From positions 1,178,001 to 1,242,000 of the forward strand of contig BPKI01000001.1 of NCBI GenBank assembly GCA_026005055.1: a stretch of 64,000 bases of DNA, written 5' to 3'. Positions 35,660-57,684 of this stretch are shown here, in pieces. The position numbers and the translations under genes were made by a program. How positions within the stretch are numbered: the stretch's first letter is position 1; each line of letters begins with the position of its first letter. This stretch comes from Lysobacterales bacterium (GTDB taxonomy: Bacteria > Pseudomonadota > Gammaproteobacteria > Xanthomonadales > BPKI01). The notes beneath the pieces were generated by a model, which was not told the origin of the DNA, did not search any database, and saw only the letters and a list, made by a program, of their open reading frames with translations.

Positions 35660-38600
35660 ATGGAGCCCATGGTCCGGGCGATTCCAGGATGCGTTGCCGT
35701 CGTCGCCTTGCTGGCGACGAGCGCGATGGCGTCTGCCGGGCCCGGGTCGTGGCACGTGCTCTCCGGCGAGCACGAGCAAGCGAAGATCCCCACGCCCCTC
35801 GGCGTGTATCGCGACGCGCCGAGGGGCAGTGTTCTCTGGCTGCGCCGCGAGCACGGCAAGCGAACGGATGGCGCGTGGGCCATTCCCACACCCGGCGGTA
35901 CGCTCTCCGTCGTTGCCGCGCACCGCATCGAACATGCCAACGGCGATGTGACGTCGGTGGGCCATCTCGCCGGCTCCGGGGCGCGCTACCCGGTCCTCTG
36001 GACCGAAGGCCGCGAGGCGAGCTTCGCCACCGGCTGGTCGCCCGCGGGGCCGTTCCGCTTCGAGGCGCGCGGCGAGATCGGCGTGATCGTGGACCTCAGC
36101 CACCCGGCGATTCGCCTCGAGGGCGCCGGCGCGTCGCCGATTCCACCCTCGGGCTTCGTTCCGCCCTCGCCGCCGGCGAAAGGGAAGAACCTCGTCGTGG
36201 TGGATGTGGCGGTGCTTTATTCGCAGGGCATCGAGGAGCGCTACCCAGGAAGCGCCGTCGAGACCCGGATCAACCACCTCGTGGCGCTGGCCAACCAGGC
36301 GCTGGCCACGAGCGCCGTGCCGGTGGTGCTCAGACTCGTGGACACGCGGCCGAGCGCCTATCCCGACAACCTCGGGCCCAATGCCGATGCGCTCGATGCC
36401 CTGCGCCAGGGGCTGGCCAATCCGAGTGGCCACCCGAACGTCGGGAATCTTCGCCAGTACGCGCAGCAAACCGGCGCCGACCTGATCACCTTGCTTCGTC
36501 CGCATGACATCGAGACCCGCGGGAATTGCGGCATCGCCTACCTCTTCGCCAACGATGGCACCCGCGGCGTGAACGTCGTGAGCGACGGCTTCTCCTCCTG
36601 GTCTCTGTGCGCCGATGAGGTCTATGCCCACGAAGTGGGCCACAACTTCGGGGCCGAGCACCAGCTCGGACAGACCTCGGCCAATCCGGGCTACGGCACG
36701 GCCCTCGCCCGCGAGGGGCAGTTCCACACGGTGATGGGTTCCTTCGGCAGCGGCCATCCCGACCGTTACCGGCGCCTGCTGCGCTTTTCCAATCCCGATC
36801 AGTTCTGCGGCGGGATGCGCTGCGGCATCCCCAACGTGGCCGACAACGCGCGCCGGCTGCGCGACAACATGCAGGCAATCGCCAACTTCCGGGCGTCGGT
36901 GAGCATGCGGCCGGTGCCGACGCCCCCGCCGCCGCTCGATCCGGACGAAGACGGCGACGGGGTTCCCGAGAGCCAGGATGCCTTTCCCTTCGACTGGCGC
37001 TACGCGCGCGACGGCGACGAGGACGGGATCCCCGATCCGCTCGATGACTTTCCCGAGGATCGCCAGCACGATCGCGACACCGACCGCGATGGCATGCCCG
37101 ATGGGCTCGACCCCGACATCGACGGCGATGGTGTGGCCAACGAGCAGGATGCGTTTCCCTACGATCGCAGCGAGTCGCGGGACGGCGATAGCGATGGGGT
37201 GGGCGACAACGCCGATCGCTTCCCGAACGATCCGCGCGAATGGCGCGATACGGATGGGGATGGGGTGGGCGATCATGCCGACCCCGACCGCGATGGCGAT
37301 GGTGTTCCGGATTTTGCAGCCGGCGTCGAGGCGGGCGAGTTCGATCTTTTGGTGATCGACACCGCGCGCGATCGGGTGCTCCGCTTCGATCTGGCGAGCG
37401 GCCTGTTTTCGGGGATCGAGTTCGCGGAATGGCACCTGCCGCAGGCCCTCGGTCAGCAGGCGCAGCTTGCTTGGAATCCGCACCAGAAGCTGCTCTACGC
37501 GCTGGTGGCGGGCGAGATCCGCCGCTACGAGCGGGCGGCGAGAAGCCGCCACGACCGCTTCGTGACCACCTATCGCCATCCGCGCGATCCCGGCCCCAAG
37601 ATGCCATCGAGCTTTTCCGCGGGTCTTGCACTTGCGCCCGATGGCACGATCTTTCTCGCCGATGAGAGCACCCGCCGCTTGGAGCGGCGCGATGCGATCA
37701 CGGGCCGGCCGGCGCCTCTCGGCGCCTTCGGCCAGGCGGATTTCTTGGCCGCTGCGCCCCGCAGCATCAGGTTCCGCGATGGGCGGGTGTGGAGCCTCGA
37801 TCGCAACGGCCGGCTGCGCGCGGTGGATGCCGCAAGCGGCCAGATCGTCTTCGATCAGGCGCTCGGCACGATCGGCGGTTTTCCCGTCTCCCAGCCCGAG
37901 GACCTGGAACTCTCGCGCGATGGCCGATTCGTGTTCATCGCCGATACCCTGCAGCACCGCATCGTCCGCATCGAGACCCAGCCGCCCTTCAACCGAAGCG
38001 TCCACGTGCTGCCAGGCGGAGGCGGGCTTCTGTTCCTGCCGAGTGGTCTTCTCCTCGACCGCGACGGGCATCTTTTGGTCGCAAGCCGCGAGACCGGCGC
38101 GATCCTTCGCTATCACGGCGAGAGCGGCGCTTTCCTCGGTCGCTTCGATCGGGCGCCGCCGGGGCTGATGCGCGAGCCCAGGCGCATGCTGCTCGCGCCG
38201 AAGGTGCGCGACCGCTTCCCGCTCGATCGCGAACGCGCTTTTCGGCCGGTGAGCGGGGGCTGGTACAACCCGGCCCGCTCGGGACATGGTTTCGCCATCG
38301 AGGTCGCCGGCCCGGTGCTGCTGGCCATCTGGTACAGCTATCGCAGCGATGGCGAGCCCACGTGGTACCTGGCCCAAGGCGAGCTTCGAGGCTCTCGATT
38401 CGAGGCGCCGCTCCTTCGCTATCGCTGGCTCAACGGGGCGGCCGTCGGGCAGGCGGTGGGGCAGCTTCGGATCGATTTCGCAAGCGAGCGGCAAGCGGTG
38501 TTTTCTTGGCAACTTCCCGACAGTCAGGGCAGCGAGCCGCTGGTGCCCCTGGCGGTCGGAAGCGCCGAGGAGACCCAGTTCCCGACCGCCGCCTGGTACG

Positions 38601-38998
38601 ACCCGCGCGAATCCGGCTGGGGTCTGATCGTGGCGCGGCAGGGCGAGCGCGCCTACGTGATCGCCTTTCTCTACGATCGGGCCGGTGAGCCCACCTGGGC
38701 GCTCGGGACCGCCGATGCCGGCGCCTCCTTCAGCTTCCGCATGGATTACTTCCGCGCCCCTGGCCTTTGCCCCGGCTGTCCGGGGGGCACGGCGATCCCT
38801 CAGCCGGCAGGCCACATCGAGTTCCGCCCGCTCGATCGGAACCGGGCGCAGGTGCAAGTGGCCGTGGCCGCCGCTGTGCTCGACTGGTCGCGCGGACCGC
38901 TCGATCTCGAGCGGCTGACCGAAAGCCCGACCGAGCCGAATCTCGATCCGAAGCCGGCCGAACCGCTCGCCCCGGTCTATGGTTTCCCGCCGCGCTGA
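35660..38998 (+). CDS. Secreted zinc metalloprotease (reprolysin-like HEXXHXXGXXH) with DxDxDG Ca-binding repeats, propeller-like region and duplicated C-terminal domain
   Basis: HEVGHNFGAEH; HTVMGSF Met-turn-like; DEDGDGVPESQDAFPFD...DTDGDGVGDHADPDRDGDGVPDF; GGWYNPARSGHGFAIE...EPTWYL and AWYDPRESGWGLIVA...EPTWAL. Confidence 0.85.
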   Translation: MEPMVRAIPGCVAVVALLATSAMASAGPGSWHVLSGEHEQAKIPTPLGVYRDAPRGSVLWLRREHGKRTDGAWAIPTPGGTLSVVAAHRIEHANGDVTSVGHLAGSGARYPVLWTEGREASFATGWSPAGPFRFEARGEIGVIVDLSHPAIRLEGAGASPIPPSGFVPPSPPAKGKNLVVVDVAVLYSQGIEERYPGSAVETRINHLVALANQALATSAVPVVLRLVDTRPSAYPDNLGPNADALDALRQGLANPSGHPNVGNLRQYAQQTGADLITLLRPHDIETRGNCGIAYLFANDGTRGVNVVSDGFSSWSLCADEVYAHEVGHNFGAEHQLGQTSANPGYGTALAREGQFHTVMGSFGSGHPDRYRRLLRFSNPDQFCGGMRCGIPNVADNARRLRDNMQAIANFRASVSMRPVPTPPPPLDPDEDGDGVPESQDAFPFDWRYARDGDEDGIPDPLDDFPEDRQHDRDTDRDGMPDGLDPDIDGDGVANEQDAFPYDRSESRDGDSDGVGDNADRFPNDPREWRDTDGDGVGDHADPDRDGDGVPDFAAGVEAGEFDLLVIDTARDRVLRFDLASGLFSGIEFAEWHLPQALGQQAQLAWNPHQKLLYALVAGEIRRYERAARSRHDRFVTTYRHPRDPGPKMPSSFSAGLALAPDGTIFLADESTRRLERRDAITGRPAPLGAFGQADFLAAAPRSIRFRDGRVWSLDRNGRLRAVDAASGQIVFDQALGTIGGFPVSQPEDLELSRDGRFVFIADTLQHRIVRIETQPPFNRSVHVLPGGGGLLFLPSGLLLDRDGHLLVASRETGAILRYHGESGAFLGRFDRAPPGLMREPRRMLLAPKVRDRFPLDRERAFRPVSGGWYNPARSGHGFAIEVAGPVLLAIWYSYRSDGEPTWYLAQGELRGSRFEAPLLRYRWLNGAAVGQAVGQLRIDFASERQAVFSWQLPDSQGSEPLVPLAVGSAEETQFPTAAWYDPRESGWGLIVARQGERAYVIAFLYDRAGEPTWALGTADAGASFSFRMDYFRAPGLCPGCPGGTAIPQPAGHIEFRPLDRNRAQVQVAVAAAVLDWSRGPLDLERLTESPTEPNLDPKPAEPLAPVYGFPPR

Positions 38999-39082: not shown

Positions 39083-40093
39083 ATGAACATCGAAGTCCTC
39101 GAAGAAACTGCCCAAGCCATGGTCGCACCCGGCAAGGGGATCCTGGCCATGGACGAATCCCATTCCACGATCGGCAAGCGCTTCGCCGCGGTGGGGCTTG
39201 AGAACACGGAGGAGAACCGCCGCGCGTACCGCGAGATGCTGCTCACCACTCCAGGGCTCGGCGAGCACATTTCGGGGGCGATCCTGTTCGACGAGACCAT
39301 CCGCCAGAAAACCCGCGATGGGGTTCCCTTCACCGAGATCATGCAGAAGGCGGGCGTCGTCCCGGGGATCAAGGTGGACAAGGGCACGGTGCCGCTCGCC
39401 GGCTTTCCCGGAGAGCTCATCACCGAGGGGCTCGACGGCCTGCGCCAGCGGCTTCAGGAGTACGTCAAGCTGGGCGCGCGATTCGCGAAGTGGCGAGCCG
39501 TGATCACCATCGGCGAGGACATCCCGAGCGCCACCTGCATCGAAGCCAACGCCCATGCCCTCGCTCGCTACGCGGCTTTATGCCAGGAGCAGGACCTGGT
39601 GCCGATCGTGGAGCCTGAGGTGCTCATGGACGGCGAGCATGACATCGACACCTGCTACGACGTCACCGAAGCCACCTTGCGGGCGGTCTTCGAGGCGCTT
39701 TATCAGCACAACGTCCTGCTCGAGGGCACCATCCTCAAGGCCTCGATGGTTCTGCCCGGCAAGGATTGCCCCGAAAAGGCGAGCCCGGAGGAGGTGGCGG
39801 CGATGACCCTGCGCTGTCTCAAATCCAGTGTCCCGGCGGCGCTTCCCGGGATCGTGTTCCTTTCCGGCGGCCAGAGCGACGAGGACGCCACCCGTCACCT
39901 CGACCTGATGAACCGCATGGGCCCGCATCCCTGGCCGCTTTCCTTCAGCTACGGCCGGGCCATGCAGCAGGCCGCGCTCAAGCTCTGGGCGAAGGACCCG
40001 GCGGGTGCCTACGCCGAGGCGCAAGCGACCGTCGCCCGCCGCGCCCGCGAGAACGGCCTTGCCGCCCTCGGCCGCCTCGCCGAGGCGGCGTGA
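39083..40093 (+). CDS. Class I fructose-bisphosphate aldolase
   Basis: [79 protein letters not shown]. Confidence 0.95.
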
Positions 40094-40582
40094 GCGCTAT
40101 GGTGGGATAAGCGTTCGCGCGGATTCACCGTCTGATTGTCGGGTCGAATGAAGAAGGGAGAAGGGCCTGTCGCAGAGCCGCCTGAGCGACGAGCATCGTG
40201 GGTGAGCGCGAGGTTGAGCGAGTATGAGCTCGCGGGTGGCGCCATCCCACATGAGCGGATGCGGTATTTCTTGCTGAGGGCCTGGTACCGCCCGAGTGGA
40301 TGCCGCTCCTCACGACCGCGCCGGTCATGCGATCGAATGACCGGATCGCCTTTGCGCTTCGTCGCTAGAGGCCCATTTTGCCCGTATCCAATGCCCCCCG
40401 GTTTTCGACGCCCACGATCGACGGCGGAAGTCGAGGCCGAAAATTGGGGGCGGAGCCCCTCGGCGAGCGCAGTCGGCCGCGAAAGAAGCGAGGTCGCTGG
40501 GCGATCTCTACATCTTGACGGGCGACCGGATTTTATGGTACCGATCTGCCCCATCTGTCGGGGTCTCAAGGGGTATCGAGAG

Positions 40583-41320
40583 ATGGTCGGTAAAATGGGG
40601 GTTCAGGACCGGGTAGAGCGCTTCATCAGCGAGCATCCTCTTTGGGTCACGGTCGGTTTCGCTGCTTTCCTTTTCGTTTTCAGCGCGTTGCTGCTTGCAT
40701 TCTTTCCTTCGCTCGTCGCGATCCTGGGCTTGAGCTTGCAATCGCAAGCGGTCGCAGAGCCGGCGATCGGCACGCAGACTTTGCTCGTCGTGGTCGTGAC
40801 CGGCGCGGTGGCCCTGACGGGCTTGCTTCTCTCCATCTTCCAAATACGCCATCGCGATCAGGAAATTCTTCTCAGTCACGCTCAAAACCTCAATCGCGCG
40901 GCCAACGATGCGGCGCGGCGGATTTTTGGGCTTGCAAAATCTCTGATCAAGCTTCAGCAAAGTGTCCAGCTCCTTTATCAAAGTGTTACGGACAACTTGC
41001 GGTGCCAACTTTCGTCGACTCCTTCGTGTTGCGAGGAAAATCAAAGCGTCAAGTTACCACCGATGGTCGAAGCGGCCTGCCAAAAGCTTGAGCAGGCGCT
41101 CGTCGCCGTCATCGAGAGCGTCCATGAAATTCGTCGAGATCCGAATACCTTAAATCTGGCGCTCAAAATCGCGAGAGCGATGATTGAACGTTTTGGGCTG
41201 CCGGATTGGAGAGACCGTCTCGTCGCAAACCCTTTAACGAAGGAAGTTTATCATCCAAGAACCGCGGATCCATTTAGCCCTAGGGTTTTTTTTTTGACGC
41301 GCTTGAAGGACTTGAAGTAA
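40583..41320 (+). CDS. Hypothetical membrane protein, upstream part of a probably frameshifted gene
   Basis: MVGKMGVQDRVERFISEHPLWVTVGFAAFLFVFSALLLAFF; second TM LLVVVVTGAVALTGLLLSIF; frame closes 25 nt after T10 at 41286-41295. Confidence 0.65.
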   Translation: MVGKMGVQDRVERFISEHPLWVTVGFAAFLFVFSALLLAFFPSLVAILGLSLQSQAVAEPAIGTQTLLVVVVTGAVALTGLLLSIFQIRHRDQEILLSHAQNLNRAANDAARRIFGLAKSLIKLQQSVQLLYQSVTDNLRCQLSSTPSCCEENQSVKLPPMVEAACQKLEQALVAVIESVHEIRRDPNTLNLALKIARAMIERFGLPDWRDRLVANPLTKEVYHPRTADPFSPRVFFLTRLKDLK

Positions 41321-41940
41321 CTCTTTTTTGCTTGAAGGATAGAAGCAAAATTTTACTTTTCTTCGCGTTAGACAGGGGACATCCCGTGTTCCATGGGAAT
41401 CCAGCGAATGTCTTGCTTTTTTTTGGGTCGATATCGGTTCAGGCATTCGCAGTTTATGTGGCTGCTTGGTTGAGCTGTATGGTCCCTTGGGACGCTGAGG
41501 ATCCGAAAGCGGAATCTAAGGTGGAGTTGCAGGGCGATTCTACGGGCGAGGCGAAGGAAGGGGTGAGTAAAGTGCCCGGAGATCTGCATCCGGTTGATCA
41601 GATCTGGCGGAACGCGATCCAATCCACTTTCGTCGAACCTGCTGTGGCTGCATTGGCCGAAGACAAGAGTGAAAAGGAACGAGCAAAACTCACCGATTTT
41701 CTGCTCAGATTTCTCGATGTTTTGCGAGTACCAGCGGGTGGTGGATTCGCATTGTGTGGGATGGTAAGAGATTTTTATTTGATGGCAAACCTCTGGACAA
41801 AGGAGTTTCGAGATAGACGCCTAGATCCGTCGGATTCCAAAGACTTCTTCAACATTGCTAAGGAGTTCAGCGAAAAGTATTATGATTTTAAATGGCCTGA
41901 GCCGGGAGGAAATCCGGGGCGTCACAATGAAAAACCATGA
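41284..41940 (+). CDS. Downstream part of the same gene in the -1 frame
   Basis: Open from the T10 run: FFFDALEGLEVTLFCLKDRSKILLFFALDRGHPVFHGNP...; listed as ORF 41332..41940 from a TTG. Confidence 0.6.
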   Translation, partial: GFFFDALEGLEVTLFCLKDRSKILLFFALDRGHPVFHGNPANVLLFFGSISVQAFAVYVAAWLSCMVPWDAEDPKAESKVELQGDSTGEAKEGVSKVPGDLHPVDQIWRNAIQSTFVEPAVAALAEDKSEKERAKLTDFLLRFLDVLRVPAGGGFALCGMVRDFYLMANLWTKEFRDRRLDPSDSKDFFNIAKEFSEKYYDFKWPEPGGNPGRHNEKP

Positions 41941-42086
41941 GAGGAGGAGCCGCTAAGGAGAACGTGCTGCGAGCGAGAGGGAAGCGCTGCGATTGAAACG
42001 GACGTTTTCCGACGGAGCTGCATCGAAATCGCGCTTGCGGTAGGATCGCGCCGGTCTGTGGACTGTCGGATGAGGCAGAGCAGCCG

Positions 42087-43214
42087 ATGACGATCACGGT
42101 GGCCGCGGTGCGGGAGCGCGATCCGGGGGAACGACGGGTCGCGATCGTGCCCGAAGTGGCGAAGAAGCTTCAGCGCAAGGGCTGTCGGGTGCTGCTCGAG
42201 CGCGGGGCTGGGGAGGCGGCGGGCTTTCCCGACGAGGCCTACGGCGAGAGCGTCGTATTCGGGTCGAGCCGCGAGGCGGTGTTGGCCGAGGCGGAGGTGC
42301 TGTTCAAGGTGCGGCCGCCTTCGCTCGAGGAGATCGCGGCGCTGCGCTCGGGCGGGGTGCTGATCGGGCTGCTCGCGCCCCATGCCGATCAGGCGCGGGT
42401 GAAGGCGCTTCGCGATCGCGGGATCACGAGCTTCGCGATGGAGCTTCTGCCGCGCACCACCCGCGCGCAGGCGATGGACGTGCTCTCCTCGCAGGCGGCG
42501 GTGGCCGGCTACAAGGCGGTTCTGATCGCGGCCGAGCGCCTGGCCAAGTTCTTCCCGATGCTCACCACCGCCGCAGGGACGATCCGACCGGCGAAGGTGC
42601 TGGTGATCGGCGCGGGGGTCGCGGGGCTTCAGGCGATCGCGACGGCGCGGCGGCTCGGGGCTCAGGTCGAGGGTTTCGACGTGCGCCCGGAGACCAAGGA
42701 GCAGATCGAATCGCTCGGGGCCAAGTTTCTCGATCTCGGGGTGCAAGCGGCGGGAAGCGGCGGTTATGCGCGCGAGCTCAGCGCCGAAGAGCGCGCCGAG
42801 CAACAGCGACGGCTCGCCGAGCACGTGCGCAAGGTCGATGTGATCGTCACGACCGCCGCGGTGCCTGGCCGGCCGGCGCCGCGCATCATCACGGCGGGGA
42901 TGGTCGCGGGCATGCGCCCGGGCTCGGTCATCGTCGATCTCGCGGCCGAAACCGGAGGCAACTGCGAGCTCACGCGGCCCAGCGAGGAGCATGAGGTGCA
43001 AGGGGTGAGGATCGTCGGCTTCACCGACCTGCCTTCGCGCGGCGCCTTCCATGCGAGCGAGATGTACGCCCGCAACCTCGCCAACTTCCTTGATCTTCTG
43101 CTCAAGGACGGTCGGCTGAACCTCGATTTCGCAGACGATCTCGTGGCCGGAACCTGCCTGACCCACGCCGGCGAGATCCGCCACGCTCCCACCCGCGAGA
43201 GGATCGGCGCATGA
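42087..43214 (+). CDS. pntAA: NAD(P) transhydrogenase subunit alpha, part 1
   Basis: MTITVAAVRERDPGERRVAIVPEVAKKLQRKGCRVLLERGAG; VLVIGAGVAGLQAIATARRLGA. Confidence 0.94.
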   Translation: MTITVAAVRERDPGERRVAIVPEVAKKLQRKGCRVLLERGAGEAAGFPDEAYGESVVFGSSREAVLAEAEVLFKVRPPSLEEIAALRSGGVLIGLLAPHADQARVKALRDRGITSFAMELLPRTTRAQAMDVLSSQAAVAGYKAVLIAAERLAKFFPMLTTAAGTIRPAKVLVIGAGVAGLQAIATARRLGAQVEGFDVRPETKEQIESLGAKFLDLGVQAAGSGGYARELSAEERAEQQRRLAEHVRKVDVIVTTAAVPGRPAPRIITAGMVAGMRPGSVIVDLAAETGGNCELTRPSEEHEVQGVRIVGFTDLPSRGAFHASEMYARNLANFLDLLLKDGRLNLDFADDLVAGTCLTHAGEIRHAPTRERIGA

Positions 43215-52048: not shown

Positions 52049-52378
52049 ATGTCTGCCGTGTTGGAAGCGGAATCGACGTTGACCGACCGCTACCAGACCA
52101 CCGTGCCAGAACCCGTGCGCCGGGCGCTTGCCCTGAGTAAACGCGACAAGATCCGCTATTCGATCCGCGCCAATGGCGAGGTCGTGCTCTCGCGTAGCGC
52201 TCCCGAAGAAGCCGCTGACCCGGCGCTGCTTCCGTTTCTCCGCTTGATCGAGCGTGACATCAGGAGACATCCAAAGCGTTTGCGGGCCATCGACGGGGGT
52301 CTGGCTGAGCGCATACAGGCGCTGGTCGCCGGCGTCGAGGTGGACCTTGAGGCGCCGCTTGCAGCCGAGGAGGCATGA
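52049..52378 (+). CDS. prlF: Type II antitoxin, PrlF family
   Basis: STLTDRYQTTVPEPVRRALALSKRDKIRYSIRANGEVVLSR (SpoVT/AbrB-like) followed by PrlF-like C-terminus; overlaps yhaV. Confidence 0.9.
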   Translation: MSAVLEAESTLTDRYQTTVPEPVRRALALSKRDKIRYSIRANGEVVLSRSAPEEAADPALLPFLRLIERDIRRHPKRLRAIDGGLAERIQALVAGVEVDLEAPLAAEEA

Positions 52379-52884
52379 GCGGCGGCGGGCCGCTGAGGGT
52401 CAATGGCTGGTCGCTCTTCGCTCATCCGGTTTTCCTCGATCAGCTGAGCGCCCTCCTTGCCGAGGTCGAGGCGCTCAAGGCCAAAGACCCAAGCAGCTAT
52501 CGGGCGAAAAATCCGACCAAGCGCCTCGCCGCCATCGCCAAGCTCGTGTTCGAGGTGATTCCCCAAGATCCCGGGCGGCGCGAGTACCGTCTCGGGGGCA
52601 CCCTCGGCGCTGAATACAAGCACTGGTTCCGGGCCAAGTTCTTCCAGCAGTACCGGCTGTTCTTTCGCTTTCACGGCAAGGGCCGGGTGATCGTTTACGC
52701 CTGGGTCAACGACGAGGCGACCAAGCGCGCTGTGGAAAGCGCGGATGACGCCTATCGCGTCTTTCGCCGCATGCTCGAACGTCGCCGTCCGCCGTCGGAC
52801 TGGGACCAGCTGCTCGCCGAAGCCAAAGCCGAAGCCGAGCGCTTGGCGCGCCTTGCCTCGGGCCGCTTGTTCCCCCTCGGTTGA
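52375..52884 (+). CDS. yhaV: Type II toxin, YhaV family
   Basis: VNGWSLFAHPVFLDQLSALLAEVEALKAKDP; LGAEYKHWFRAKFFQQYRLFFRFH; VIVYAWVNDEATKRAYES-like segment. Confidence 0.92.
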   Translation: MSGGGPLRVNGWSLFAHPVFLDQLSALLAEVEALKAKDPSSYRAKNPTKRLAAIAKLVFEVIPQDPGRREYRLGGTLGAEYKHWFRAKFFQQYRLFFRFHGKGRVIVYAWVNDEATKRAVESADDAYRVFRRMLERRRPPSDWDQLLAEAKAEAERLARLASGRLFPLG

Positions 52885-53190: not shown

Positions 53191-53301
53191 TCAGACTGGA
53201 GCCACCGTGTTCGTATCGACCAACGCTTGCAGATGTTCGTGCAGTAACCTCGGTAACTGCCCACCCGTGAGAAGTACCCCAGCCTCCATGTTCCGGTCCA
53301 T
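53191..53301 (-). pseudogene. drmC: 3' end of DISARM drmC, separated from the rest by an IS
   Basis: Reverse-strand MDRNMEAGVLLTGGQLPRLLHEHLQALVDTNTVAPV* continues ...LTGHAMDRNM at 54755-54780. Confidence 0.8.
53286..53301. repeat. 16-bp direct repeat, left member
   Basis: CCATGTTCCGGTCCAT; second member at 54755-54770. Confidence 0.9.
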
Positions 53302-53327
53302 GTCGTTTCGTGTGGAAAGCAACACCG

Positions 53328-54623
53328 TCACTGGGGCATCGCCGGCGCGAACGGACTGGCCGGCAGGTGCTTGAGCTTGGACATGCGCAGGTAGGCGATG
53401 GCGATGAAGTTCTGGCTCGTCCTGAAGCCGCGCGCGGCGCGCTTGGCCTGCTGCAGCAGCCCGTTCATCGCCTCGACGAAGGCGTTGCTGCGGTGATCGA
53501 CCATGCCGCGCACCACCGCGTCGAACCGCTCCTTGAGCGTGGCGGCCAGCTTCTTGAACGGCTCGAGCCGACAGCGCCGCGCCCAGCTCAGCCAGGCCCT
53601 GAGGTCGGATGCGGCCTGTTCGATGCTGTTGTGCGCTGTGGCCCGTGCGTACACCGCGCGCAGCGCCATCTTCAGCCGCCACGCCCGCGCGCTCTTGAGC
53701 GTCGAGCGCTGCAGCCAGTGCATCGCCTGGAGCTGGCGGGCGCTCCAGGTGCTGGGGTTGCGCCGCATGCCCCACAGCAGCTGCCTGAGCGTCTTACGCT
53801 GGCCAGTGCCCAGCGCGGCTCGCACCGCCTGCGCGTCGGTGGCCATCTCCGCGCGGCGCACCTGGTCCATCGCCTCGATGGCCATCGAGACGACGTGGAA
53901 GCGGTCGTAGCTGATCTGCGCCTGGGGCAGCGCCAGCGCCACGCCCTTGGCGTAGGCCGCGCTCATGTCCATGCACACGTGCCGCACCTGGGCGGGATCG
54001 CCGCCATGGGCCTTCAGATCCTCGGCGAACTCCACCACCGTGCGGTGCTCGCGCCCCTCGGTGGCGAACAGCAGCCGCTTGCGATCCAGGTCGTGCACGA
54101 CGGTGATGTAGTGCTGCCCGCGCCGCAGGCTGGTCTCGTCGATGCCCACCGTGCGCACGCCGGCGAAGTCTTCCAGCGCACGCGCCTGCGCGACGTAGAA
54201 CTCGATGCGCCGCCACAGCCGCTTGTCCTTGCAGCGCAGCAACTCGGCGGCCTGGCGCACCGGCAGGTCCAGGCACAAGGTCAGCGCCAGCGCTTCGAAC
54301 GCCGCGGTGAAGCCCGAGCCCGGACGCGCCCAGGGCACGGCCACCTGCGTGGTCTTGCCGCAGGCACCGCAGGCCACGCGCGGCACGTCGCAATGCAGCC
54401 AGGCCTCGAACTGGAAGAAGTCCAGGTGCCGCCAGGATCGGCGCAGCCGGTCGTGCACCGGTTGCGTGGCCGCACCGCATGCCGGGCAGGCGAGCCTGCT
54501 GGTGTGGCAGCCGATCTCGAAGTCGATACGCCGCTTGGCGGTGTCGAGCCTGACGTCATCGACGACCCACGGCGGCTGCAAGCCCAGCGCGCTGGTGAAC
54601 AGAGCTTCTACGGCAATGCCCAT
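53328..54623 (-). CDS. ISL3 family transposase, copy 1
   Basis: RLACPACGAATQPVHDRLRRSWRHLDFF; GIDETSLRRGQHYITVVHDLD; FVEAMNGLLQQAKRAARGFRTSQNFIAIAYLRMSKL. Confidence 0.93.
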   Translation of the reverse strand: MGIAVEALFTSALGLQPPWVVDDVRLDTAKRRIDFEIGCHTSRLACPACGAATQPVHDRLRRSWRHLDFFQFEAWLHCDVPRVACGACGKTTQVAVPWARPGSGFTAAFEALALTLCLDLPVRQAAELLRCKDKRLWRRIEFYVAQARALEDFAGVRTVGIDETSLRRGQHYITVVHDLDRKRLLFATEGREHRTVVEFAEDLKAHGGDPAQVRHVCMDMSAAYAKGVALALPQAQISYDRFHVVSMAIEAMDQVRRAEMATDAQAVRAALGTGQRKTLRQLLWGMRRNPSTWSARQLQAMHWLQRSTLKSARAWRLKMALRAVYARATAHNSIEQAASDLRAWLSWARRCRLEPFKKLAATLKERFDAVVRGMVDHRSNAFVEAMNGLLQQAKRAARGFRTSQNFIAIAYLRMSKLKHLPASPFAPAMPQ

Positions 54624-54652
54624 GGACTCATCCTCCTGATCAAACACGCCTC

Positions 54653-54697
54653 GTGGACATGTGCACAGGCCGGCCAGCGGCCTGCACACATGCCCAC
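54653..54697 (-). other. IS 5'-region hairpin, copy 1
   Basis: 19-nt arms 54653-54671 and 54679-54697 with 7-nt loop. Confidence 0.75.
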
Positions 54698-54749
54698 CGG
54701 GCTCGACGACCAGGAGTCATTGTGACTGTTGGGTTCCACACGAAATGAC

Positions 54750-55421
54750 GAAGGCCATGTTCCGGTCCATGGCATGACCGGTCAGGTTGGCGCTGGTGAT
54801 GAAGCAGATGGCGCCGTCGGCGACGGCGACCTTGGCGTGGACTCTGCCATCCGCAAAAGGGGGCGCTCGTCTACGCCAGGCATAGAGCTTCGCGGAAGGC
54901 ACCAGCGTCTTCATCGTGCCGAAGACATCGAAGTTGATGCTGCCCCCGTGATCCTGTGACGACTCAAGCAGCATCGATATGCCCACCCCTCGAGAGCTCG
55001 CATCGTTCAATGCCTTGACGATGGTCGAGACGCCGTGTGCCACGAAACTGGTGATGAACAAGGTTTGTTTTGCTGTCTCGATGACTTGCAAAAGCACTTG
55101 CTCGGTTCGGCGGGTCGCTACGAAGGGTGTCGTCGGTCCCGTCCACACGAGCTCGATCGACTGCTGTTTCGATACTCTCTCGAATGCATGACCGGCGGCG
55201 AGCAGCATGGAAGCCAACTCGCCGGCAGGGATAGGCGTACTCCGCCAAGCCTCGATGAGCCGCTCTACGACGGCTTTGGCAGCTGAAGTAGCTACGACAT
55301 CGGACAGAGCGGCATCCGACCTTGCGGCCTCGATTTCCCGAATCGAACACGCGAGCGCTCGCAGTTTTTCCGGGGAAAGGAGACTGACTACGTCGGTGAT
55401 GGCTCCGAGGAGGCGCTCCAT
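54750..55421 (-). pseudogene. drmC: DISARM phospholipase D-like protein DrmC, 3' end displaced by an IS
   Basis: QTLFITSFVAHGVSTIVKALNDASSRGVGISMLLESS; HKD-like GRVHAKVAVADGAICFITSANLTGHAMDRNM. Confidence 0.83.
54755..54770. repeat. 16-bp direct repeat, right member
   Basis: CCATGTTCCGGTCCAT; identical to 53286-53301, 5 nt from the IS core end. Confidence 0.9.
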
Positions 55422-55422
55422 C

Positions 55423-56120
55423 TCAGAGTAGAGCAAAAAAGGATGCTTCTTCGCGACCCAGGACGGGCACCACCAGCGATCGGTCGAGATAGCGATTGCT
55501 CCGTTCGCAAGAGGTTTCCGGCACGAGGCTGCAAGCGTGGCATGCGGCGGCGTGGAGCGAGCGGTCCTTGCCTGGGTCGTGCTCCGAGCAGAGCGGGTCC
55601 GACGAGCAGACCTTCGCTCGGTTCAAGGCCTGTCGTAGCAGTCGCCCGAGGTTATCGGGTTTTCCCAGGTCGACGAGCCCCCCCAACGTCCCGTCCGAAT
55701 CGGCTGCCGCCGTGTAGATCAGGATGCCTGCATGTGGATTCGCGACATCGGCATAGATCCGTTCGCGGATGCTCGCCGCATTGTAGCCACATTCGAGCGC
55801 CAGCTCGCGGATGAGCAAGTGCGACAGCGTGTGGAGCATGGCATAGCGGATACCAGGATAGCCCTCCTTAGGATCGAGGCGGCGCGAGTCGCGCCAACCC
55901 CGATGTCCGGCCACGAGCATTCGATCGACCTCCCTGACTTTCGAGAGTGACTCCCAATTCTGTATCGCCTGCTCGCTGAACTGGATGAAGATGCCCTCAC
56001 CATGCACCTGGTTCGCCAGTACCCAATCGGGCTTACAACGAGCAAGCGGCGCCATCCGAGGGCGTTCGTCCGGATCGCTCGACTCCTCGGGCGCTTCCAC
56101 GCGAGTGAAACCGGCTCTTC
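55423..56120 (-). pseudogene. drmB: DISARM DrmB (DUF1998), C-terminal part only
   Basis: RAGFTRVEAPEESSDPDERPRMAPLARCKPDWVLANQVHGEGIFIQF; HTLSHLLIRELALECGYNAASIRERIYAD; CSSDPLCSEHDP...AACHACSLVPETSCERSNRYLDRSLVV; N-terminus lost at IS copy 2. Confidence 0.85.
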
Positions 56121-56172
56121 GTCATTTCGTGTGGAACCCAACAGTCACAATGACTCCTGGTCGTCGAGCCCG

Positions 56173-56217
56173 GTGGGCATGTGTGCAGGCCGCTGGCCGG
56201 CCTGTGCACATGTCCAC
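56173..56217 (+). other. IS 5'-region hairpin, copy 2
   Basis: GTGGGCATGTGTGCAGGCC (56173-56191), loop GCTGGCC, GGCCTGTGCACATGTCCAC (56199-56217); pairs fully with three G-U wobbles in the transposase-sense RNA. Confidence 0.75.
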
Positions 56218-56246
56218 GAGGCGTGTTTGATCAGGAGGATGAGTCC

Positions 56247-57542
56247 ATGGGCATTGCCGTAGAAGCTCTGTTCACCAGCGCGCTGGGCTTGCAGCCGCCG
56301 TGGGTCGTCGATGACGTCAGGCTCGACACCGCCAAGCGGCGTATCGACTTCGAGATCGGCTGCCACACCAGCAGGCTCGCCTGCCCGGCATGCGGTGCGG
56401 CCACGCAACCGGTGCACGACCGGCTGCGCCGATCCTGGCGGCACCTGGACTTCTTCCAGTTCGAGGCCTGGCTGCATTGCGACGTGCCGCGCGTGGCCTG
56501 CGGTGCCTGCGGCAAGACCACGCAGGTGGCCGTGCCCTGGGCGCGTCCGGGCTCGGGCTTCACCGCGGCGTTCGAAGCGCTGGCGCTGACCTTGTGCCTG
56601 GACCTGCCGGTGCGCCAGGCCGCCGAGTTGCTGCGCTGCAAGGACAAGCGGCTGTGGCGGCGCATCGAGTTCTACGTCGCGCAGGCGCGTGCGCTGGAAG
56701 ACTTCGCCGGCGTGCGCACGGTGGGCATCGACGAGACCAGCCTGCGGCGCGGGCAGCACTACATCACCGTCGTGCACGACCTGGATCGCAAGCGGCTGCT
56801 GTTCGCCACCGAGGGGCGCGAGCACCGCACGGTGGTGGAGTTCGCCGAGGATCTGAGGGCCCATGGCGGCGATCCCGCCCAGGTGCGGCACGTGTGCATG
56901 GACATGAGCGCGGCCTACGCCAAGGGCGTGGCGCTGGCGCTGCCCCAGGCGCAGATCAGCTACGACCGCTTCCACGTCGTCTCGATGGCCATCGAGGCGA
57001 TGGACCAGGTGCGCCGCGCGGAGATGGCCACCGACGCGCAGGCGGTGCGAGCCGCGCTGGGCACTGGCCAGCGTAAGACGCTCAGGCAGCTGCTGTGGGG
57101 CATGCGGCGCAACCCCAGCAGCTGGAGCGCCCGCCAGATCCAGGCGATGCACTGGCTGCAGCGCTCGACGCTCAAAAGCGCGCGGGCGTGGCGGCTGAAG
57201 ATGGCGCTGCGCGAGGTGTACGCGCGGGCCACAGCGCACAACAGCATCGAACAGGCCGCATCCGACCTCAGGGCCTGGCTGAGCTGGGCGCGGCGCTGTC
57301 GGCTCGAGCCGTTCAAGAAGCTGGCCGCCACGCTCAAGGAGCGGTTCGACGCGGTGGTGCGCGGCATGGTCGATCACCGCAGCAACGCCTTCGTCGAGGC
57401 GATGAACGGGCTGCTGCAGCAGGCCAAGCGCGCCGCGCGCGGCTTCAGGACGAGCCAGAACTTCATCGCCATCGCCTACCTGCGCATGTCCAAGCTCAAG
57501 CACCTGCCGGCCAGTCCGTTCGCGCCGGCGATGCCCCAGTGA
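56247..57542 (+). CDS. ISL3 family transposase, copy 2
   Basis: Near-identical to 53328..54623 (K/R, T/S, L/I and A/E differences). Confidence 0.93.
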   Translation: MGIAVEALFTSALGLQPPWVVDDVRLDTAKRRIDFEIGCHTSRLACPACGAATQPVHDRLRRSWRHLDFFQFEAWLHCDVPRVACGACGKTTQVAVPWARPGSGFTAAFEALALTLCLDLPVRQAAELLRCKDKRLWRRIEFYVAQARALEDFAGVRTVGIDETSLRRGQHYITVVHDLDRKRLLFATEGREHRTVVEFAEDLRAHGGDPAQVRHVCMDMSAAYAKGVALALPQAQISYDRFHVVSMAIEAMDQVRRAEMATDAQAVRAALGTGQRKTLRQLLWGMRRNPSSWSARQIQAMHWLQRSTLKSARAWRLKMALREVYARATAHNSIEQAASDLRAWLSWARRCRLEPFKKLAATLKERFDAVVRGMVDHRSNAFVEAMNGLLQQAKRAARGFRTSQNFIAIAYLRMSKLKHLPASPFAPAMPQ

Positions 57543-57684
57543 CAGTGTTGCTTTCCACACGAAACGACATGGAGCCCCATCGCCTACCTGCGCATGTCCA
57601 AGCTCAAGCACCTGCCGGCCAGTCCGTTCGCGCCGGCGATGCCCCAGTGACAGTGTTGCTTTCCACACGAAACGACATGGAGCC
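57469..57684. repeat. 108-bp tandem duplication of the IS copy 2 right end
   Basis: 57469-57576 and 57577-57684: ccatcgcctacctgcgcatg...gaaacgacatggagcc repeated with period 108. Confidence 0.9.

Follow-up and report, generated by a model that had tools for sequence, protein, structure and literature searches.

One gene or two at the longest T-run of a GC-rich genome: an AT-rich orphan locus for a predicted membrane protein in a Lysobacterales bacterium

In the genome of a Lysobacterales bacterium, two open reading frames meet at a run of ten T residues, between a gene that we take to encode class I fructose-bisphosphate aldolase (39083-40093) and one that we take to encode a pntA-like transhydrogenase alpha subunit (42087-43214). 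The locus raises the question of whether one gene has been interrupted at the T10 run or whether two ordinary genes lie side by side. In the former case, it has to be asked whether the interruption is a plain length change, an assembly error or a device with a function. The analysis was centred on a stretch of 64,000 nucleotides, here called the window, at positions 1,178,001-1,242,000 of a genome assembled as a single contig (2,441,650 bases; completeness 99.96%). The features concerned are as follows.

40480-41960 (limits approximate): AT-rich orphan stretch, flanked by the aldolase and pntA-like genes
40583-41320, plus strand: ORF1, 245 aa, ATG start preceded by AAGGGG at a distance of 9 nt, coding phase
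41286-41295, plus strand: T10 homopolymer, longest A/T run of the genome, inside the segment where both frames are open
41287-41940, plus strand: -1 reading frame of 217 codons, open from T10, coding phase, one hydrophobic segment
41386-41940, plus strand: separate 184-aa ORF if there are two genes, GTG start with Shine-Dalgarno-like AGGGGA

First, the reading frames on both sides of the run were characterized. ORF1 (MVGKMGVQ...SPRVFFLTRLKDLK*) ends with the TAA codon at 41318-41320, 25 nt past T10. The -1 frame, which reads FFFDALEGLEVTLFCLKDRSK... and stops at 41938-41940, has its nearest upstream stops at 41275 and 41281; it is open from 41284 onward, i.e., from 2 nt before the run. Both frames are open together only over the 34 nt from 41284 to 41317, and T10 lies within these. 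When the bases of the -1 frame were shuffled, none of 20,000 sequences remained open over the 217 codons. The dip in GC content at codon position 2 follows the phase of ORF1 at about 40.5-41.26 kb and the -1 phase at 41.29-41.95 kb. With a position-specific model from whose training the junction was excluded, a frame switch was better than any single frame by at least 46 bits, the optimal switch point falling within 2 bits anywhere from 41253 to 41334. In a separate comparison of codon likelihoods, treating the -1 stretch as non-coding was 46 bits worse than the fused model. The initial annotation had described a gene split at a T10 run, with a first ORF ending just after it and a coding-like -1 frame open to 41940; each of these statements was borne out. 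Apart from the shift, internal stops are absent from both frames. Since neither frame has decayed, a pseudogene, if this is one, would be recent, and a recent pseudogene with a single indel is possible.

Second, the run itself was compared with the rest of the genome. With both strands counted, no other T10 is present in the 2.44 Mb, and the remaining long runs comprise one T9 and some T8 and A8. Since even a T9 is expected only 0.03 times per shuffled window, the T10 run would not be expected by chance. A T8 run is located at 41417-41424 inside the -1 frame, 121 nt past T10, and both belong to the few T-runs of at least eight in the genome. T10 is not recognisable as part of an intrinsic terminator; the preceding CCCTAGGG can form only a weak stem.

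Third, the composition and the relationships of the stretch were analyzed. About 1.5 kb with roughly 51% GC lie within a region of 67-70% GC (0.54 for ORF1 and 0.48 for the -1 frame, as compared to 0.67-0.70 for the neighbouring genes). The 3' half had been described as AT-rich, and its low GC content was confirmed; the AT-richness, however, spans the whole of 40.5-41.95 kb and rises along it. Both halves and the read-through protein were used as queries in homologue searches. Only sub-threshold matches were obtained with the Pfam, NCBIfam, PHROGs and PADLOC profiles, and no homologue was found among PDB sequences or in the plasmid, phage, viral-contig and GTDB genome collections. Likewise, there was none in the genomes of 61 relatives, or in 398 same-order, 369 same-class and 399 same-phylum genomes (about 1,160 same-phylum genomes sampled in all). 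A handful of matches with per-genome E values of 5e-4 to 0.01 were short and mostly covered membrane or helical segments; their number was about that expected for so many genomes, and they were set aside. Thus, the view that the protein belongs to no known family held for the fused protein as for its halves in all collections searched. In the relatives, the regions around pntA contained neither an aldolase gene nor the orphan gene within the 1.5 kb examined. Because of its low GC content, its lack of relatives and its site between two housekeeping genes, the orphan stretch appears to be horizontally acquired DNA, as had been proposed from its composition.

The hydrophobicity profiles indicate a membrane protein without assignable function, in agreement with the earlier description as a membrane gene. 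ORF1 has two strong hydrophobic segments (30-48 and 67-85 as the best windows of 19 residues), followed by mostly predicted helix, and the -1 frame has one (residues 42-60). Single-sequence structure predictions were poor, with mean pLDDT values of 58 and 47, and mostly helical between the hydrophobic segments.

Several other features were observed in the window. At 35756-38998, a large metallopeptidase of the reprolysin-like (M12B) type is encoded, in which Asp-rich motifs of the DxDxDG type are repeated, and a pair of PrlF antitoxin and YhaV toxin genes is found at 52049-52884. Just downstream of this pair, at 53297-57573, two inverted copies of an ISL3-family IS element (1457 nt, reported as 100% complementary) surround a 1.36-kb DISARM remnant. 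The remnant is on the minus strand and comprises DrmB reduced to its C-terminal part (55423-56100) and a phospholipase-D-like DrmC lacking its C-terminal end (54717-55436), each with a strong PADLOC match; it looks like a DISARM locus trimmed by the IS copies. A 105-nt inverted copy of one ISL3 end (99%) follows at 57577-57681, 3 nt past the second full copy.

With regard to the number of genes, one gene interrupted at T10 is the more likely reading of the orphan stretch, if not a proven one, and its probability was judged to exceed that of two genes about three- to fourfold. It is favoured because the longest T-run of the genome sits in the 34-nt overlap of the frames, because the open part of the -1 frame reaches back as far as the run and because the 90 bases after the run are codon-like in this frame. 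If the two ORFs were unrelated, a T10 inside a 34-nt overlap of a 1.36-kb stretch would be a coincidence of about 2-3%, although this arithmetic is post hoc. In bases 41296-41385, the codon score of the -1 frame exceeded that of more than 99% of shuffles, and openness of this segment by chance amounts to 14%.

Two ordinary adjacent genes for membrane proteins of 245 and 184 aa, with the second starting at GTG 41386 or TTG 41332 and T10 being incidental, are the strongest of the alternatives, but an unlikely one. The downstream ORF had been thought to rely on a TTG codon. While the listed ORF does start with TTG 41332, GTG 41386 is the better start, with the Shine-Dalgarno-like AGGGGA 6 nt before it. 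With this GTG, the gap between the genes would be a normal 65 nt, each product would have a membrane segment of its own, and the codon likelihood is 3.5 bits above that of the fused model; with the TTG start, it is neutral. The proposal of one protein of about 450 aa stands as the more likely reading, but codon likelihood fails to separate it from two genes. Moreover, gene overlaps make up a third of orphan singletons according to the GeneTack authors (PMC3711429). On the other hand, a switch as late as 41386 costs 4 bits in the position-specific model with the junction excluded, and a start there costs 8.8 bits in a host-trained position model. The latter has its optimum at about 41331 and disfavours a switch at 41290 equally. 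Two genes would also leave the open, codon-like segment 41296-41385 and the position of T10 in the overlap to coincidence.

The reading preferred here, tentatively and at somewhat less than even probability, is that of an acquired orphan gene for a membrane protein, about 452 codons long, whose reading frame was shifted by a change of one base at T10. From its N-terminus, the encoded protein would have had two membrane segments and a helical middle part, followed by a third membrane segment and a C-terminal domain that is again helical. Replication slippage in the hypermutable homopolymer would most likely have changed the length of the run by one base, leaving a truncated product of 245 aa, and leaky transcriptional slippage on U10 may still yield a little full-length protein. 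For orphan singletons with a frame transition, the GeneTack authors expect 67% indels or sequencing errors versus 33% gene overlaps (PMC3711429). The locus belongs to the same class, being an orphan that lacks homologues and apparently changes its reading frame; it differs from other such singletons in its unusually clear candidate cause, i.e., the longest A/T run at the transition.

Alternatively, the run length may have been misassembled or miscalled and the gene may be intact with its approximately 452 codons, a reading that is also unlikely and ranks just behind that of two genes. In a genome that forms a single contig, the break coincides exactly with the longest A/T homopolymer, a classic site of error, and both halves look undamaged. 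In general, many putative pseudogenes have been explained by assembly errors (PMC11017572). However, the completeness of the genome is high, the genes of the window fit together neatly, with overlaps of 4 bp, and other coding homopolymers of at least eight break no genes. The last point is based on inspection of all C/G and A/T runs of at least eight in the genome. Those located in genes are about a dozen runs of G/C and a single A8, all of them in ORFs without a break. The A/T runs of at least eight beyond the gene with T10 are, apart from that A8, apparently either intergenic or in the regions of terminators or starts; e.g., the T9 immediately precedes the probable start codon ATG of its gene (L047), and an evident terminator has one T8 as its tail (L050: GCCGGTGGC...GCCACCGGC, then T8). 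Since no break accompanies the coding runs, the assembly does not suffer widely from homopolymer errors, but these controls are all shorter than ten.

Programmed or functional slippage at T10, comparable to that in tssM1 of Citrobacter rodentium, was considered improbable. RNA polymerase of E. coli slips on runs of at least seven T, with T preferred over A (PMC6260861); some slipped transcripts are therefore expected at T10 whatever the status of the gene, but these need not be functional. The run is longer than the approximately nine A/T residues regarded as a minimum for transcriptional slippage in a coding region, the extended -1 frame of 217 codons is coding-like by its codon-position bias, and neither frame has decayed. 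In tssM1, a run of 11 A yields both length variants (PMC4256274). As in the present case, a membrane-protein gene is stopped just after a long homopolymer and the remainder is open in another frame. In contrast to tssM1, the run here is T10 instead of A11, the protein is unrelated and predicted from the sequence, and no homologue marks the full length as the ancestral form. Candidates for slippage at 9A/9T are mostly IS element genes (PMC1088944); the present locus shares with them a long T-run where coding regions avoid such runs, but has no transposase or IS similarity. For ribosomal -1 frameshifting, heptamers of the type X XXY YYZ are present in the zero frame (T TTT TTT and T TTT TTG), which is trivial for a T10 run. 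The predicted stem begins about 2 nt past the heptamer instead of about 5-9 nt, which would place it poorly for a -1 signal, and the hairpin after the run (z -2.5) is equalled in other windows along the gene. There was no sign of the short form being used. Similarly little credence was given to the idea that RNA polymerase slippage on T10 yields two functional forms of an orphan membrane protein, of 245 and about 452 aa; it is rated marginally below functional slippage in general.

Phase variation, in which the length of T10 would vary in the population and switch the membrane protein on and off, is the least probable reading. A T10 within the coding sequence of an acquired gene for a membrane protein is a suitable contingency locus. 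However, it is located mid-gene past the first membrane segments and is the only A/T run of ten in the genome, whereas multiple genic runs of this kind would be expected in a phase-variable species.

Taken together, the locus most likely reflects an ordinary one-base length change (or an assembly error) with no demonstrated new mechanism, and nothing found separates functional slippage or phase variation from it. Orphan genes split at homopolymers are impossible to classify from one assembly. If slippage were true, the locus would be a further example of one gene giving two proteins by means of a homopolymer, in a GC-rich genome whose genes otherwise avoid long T-runs.
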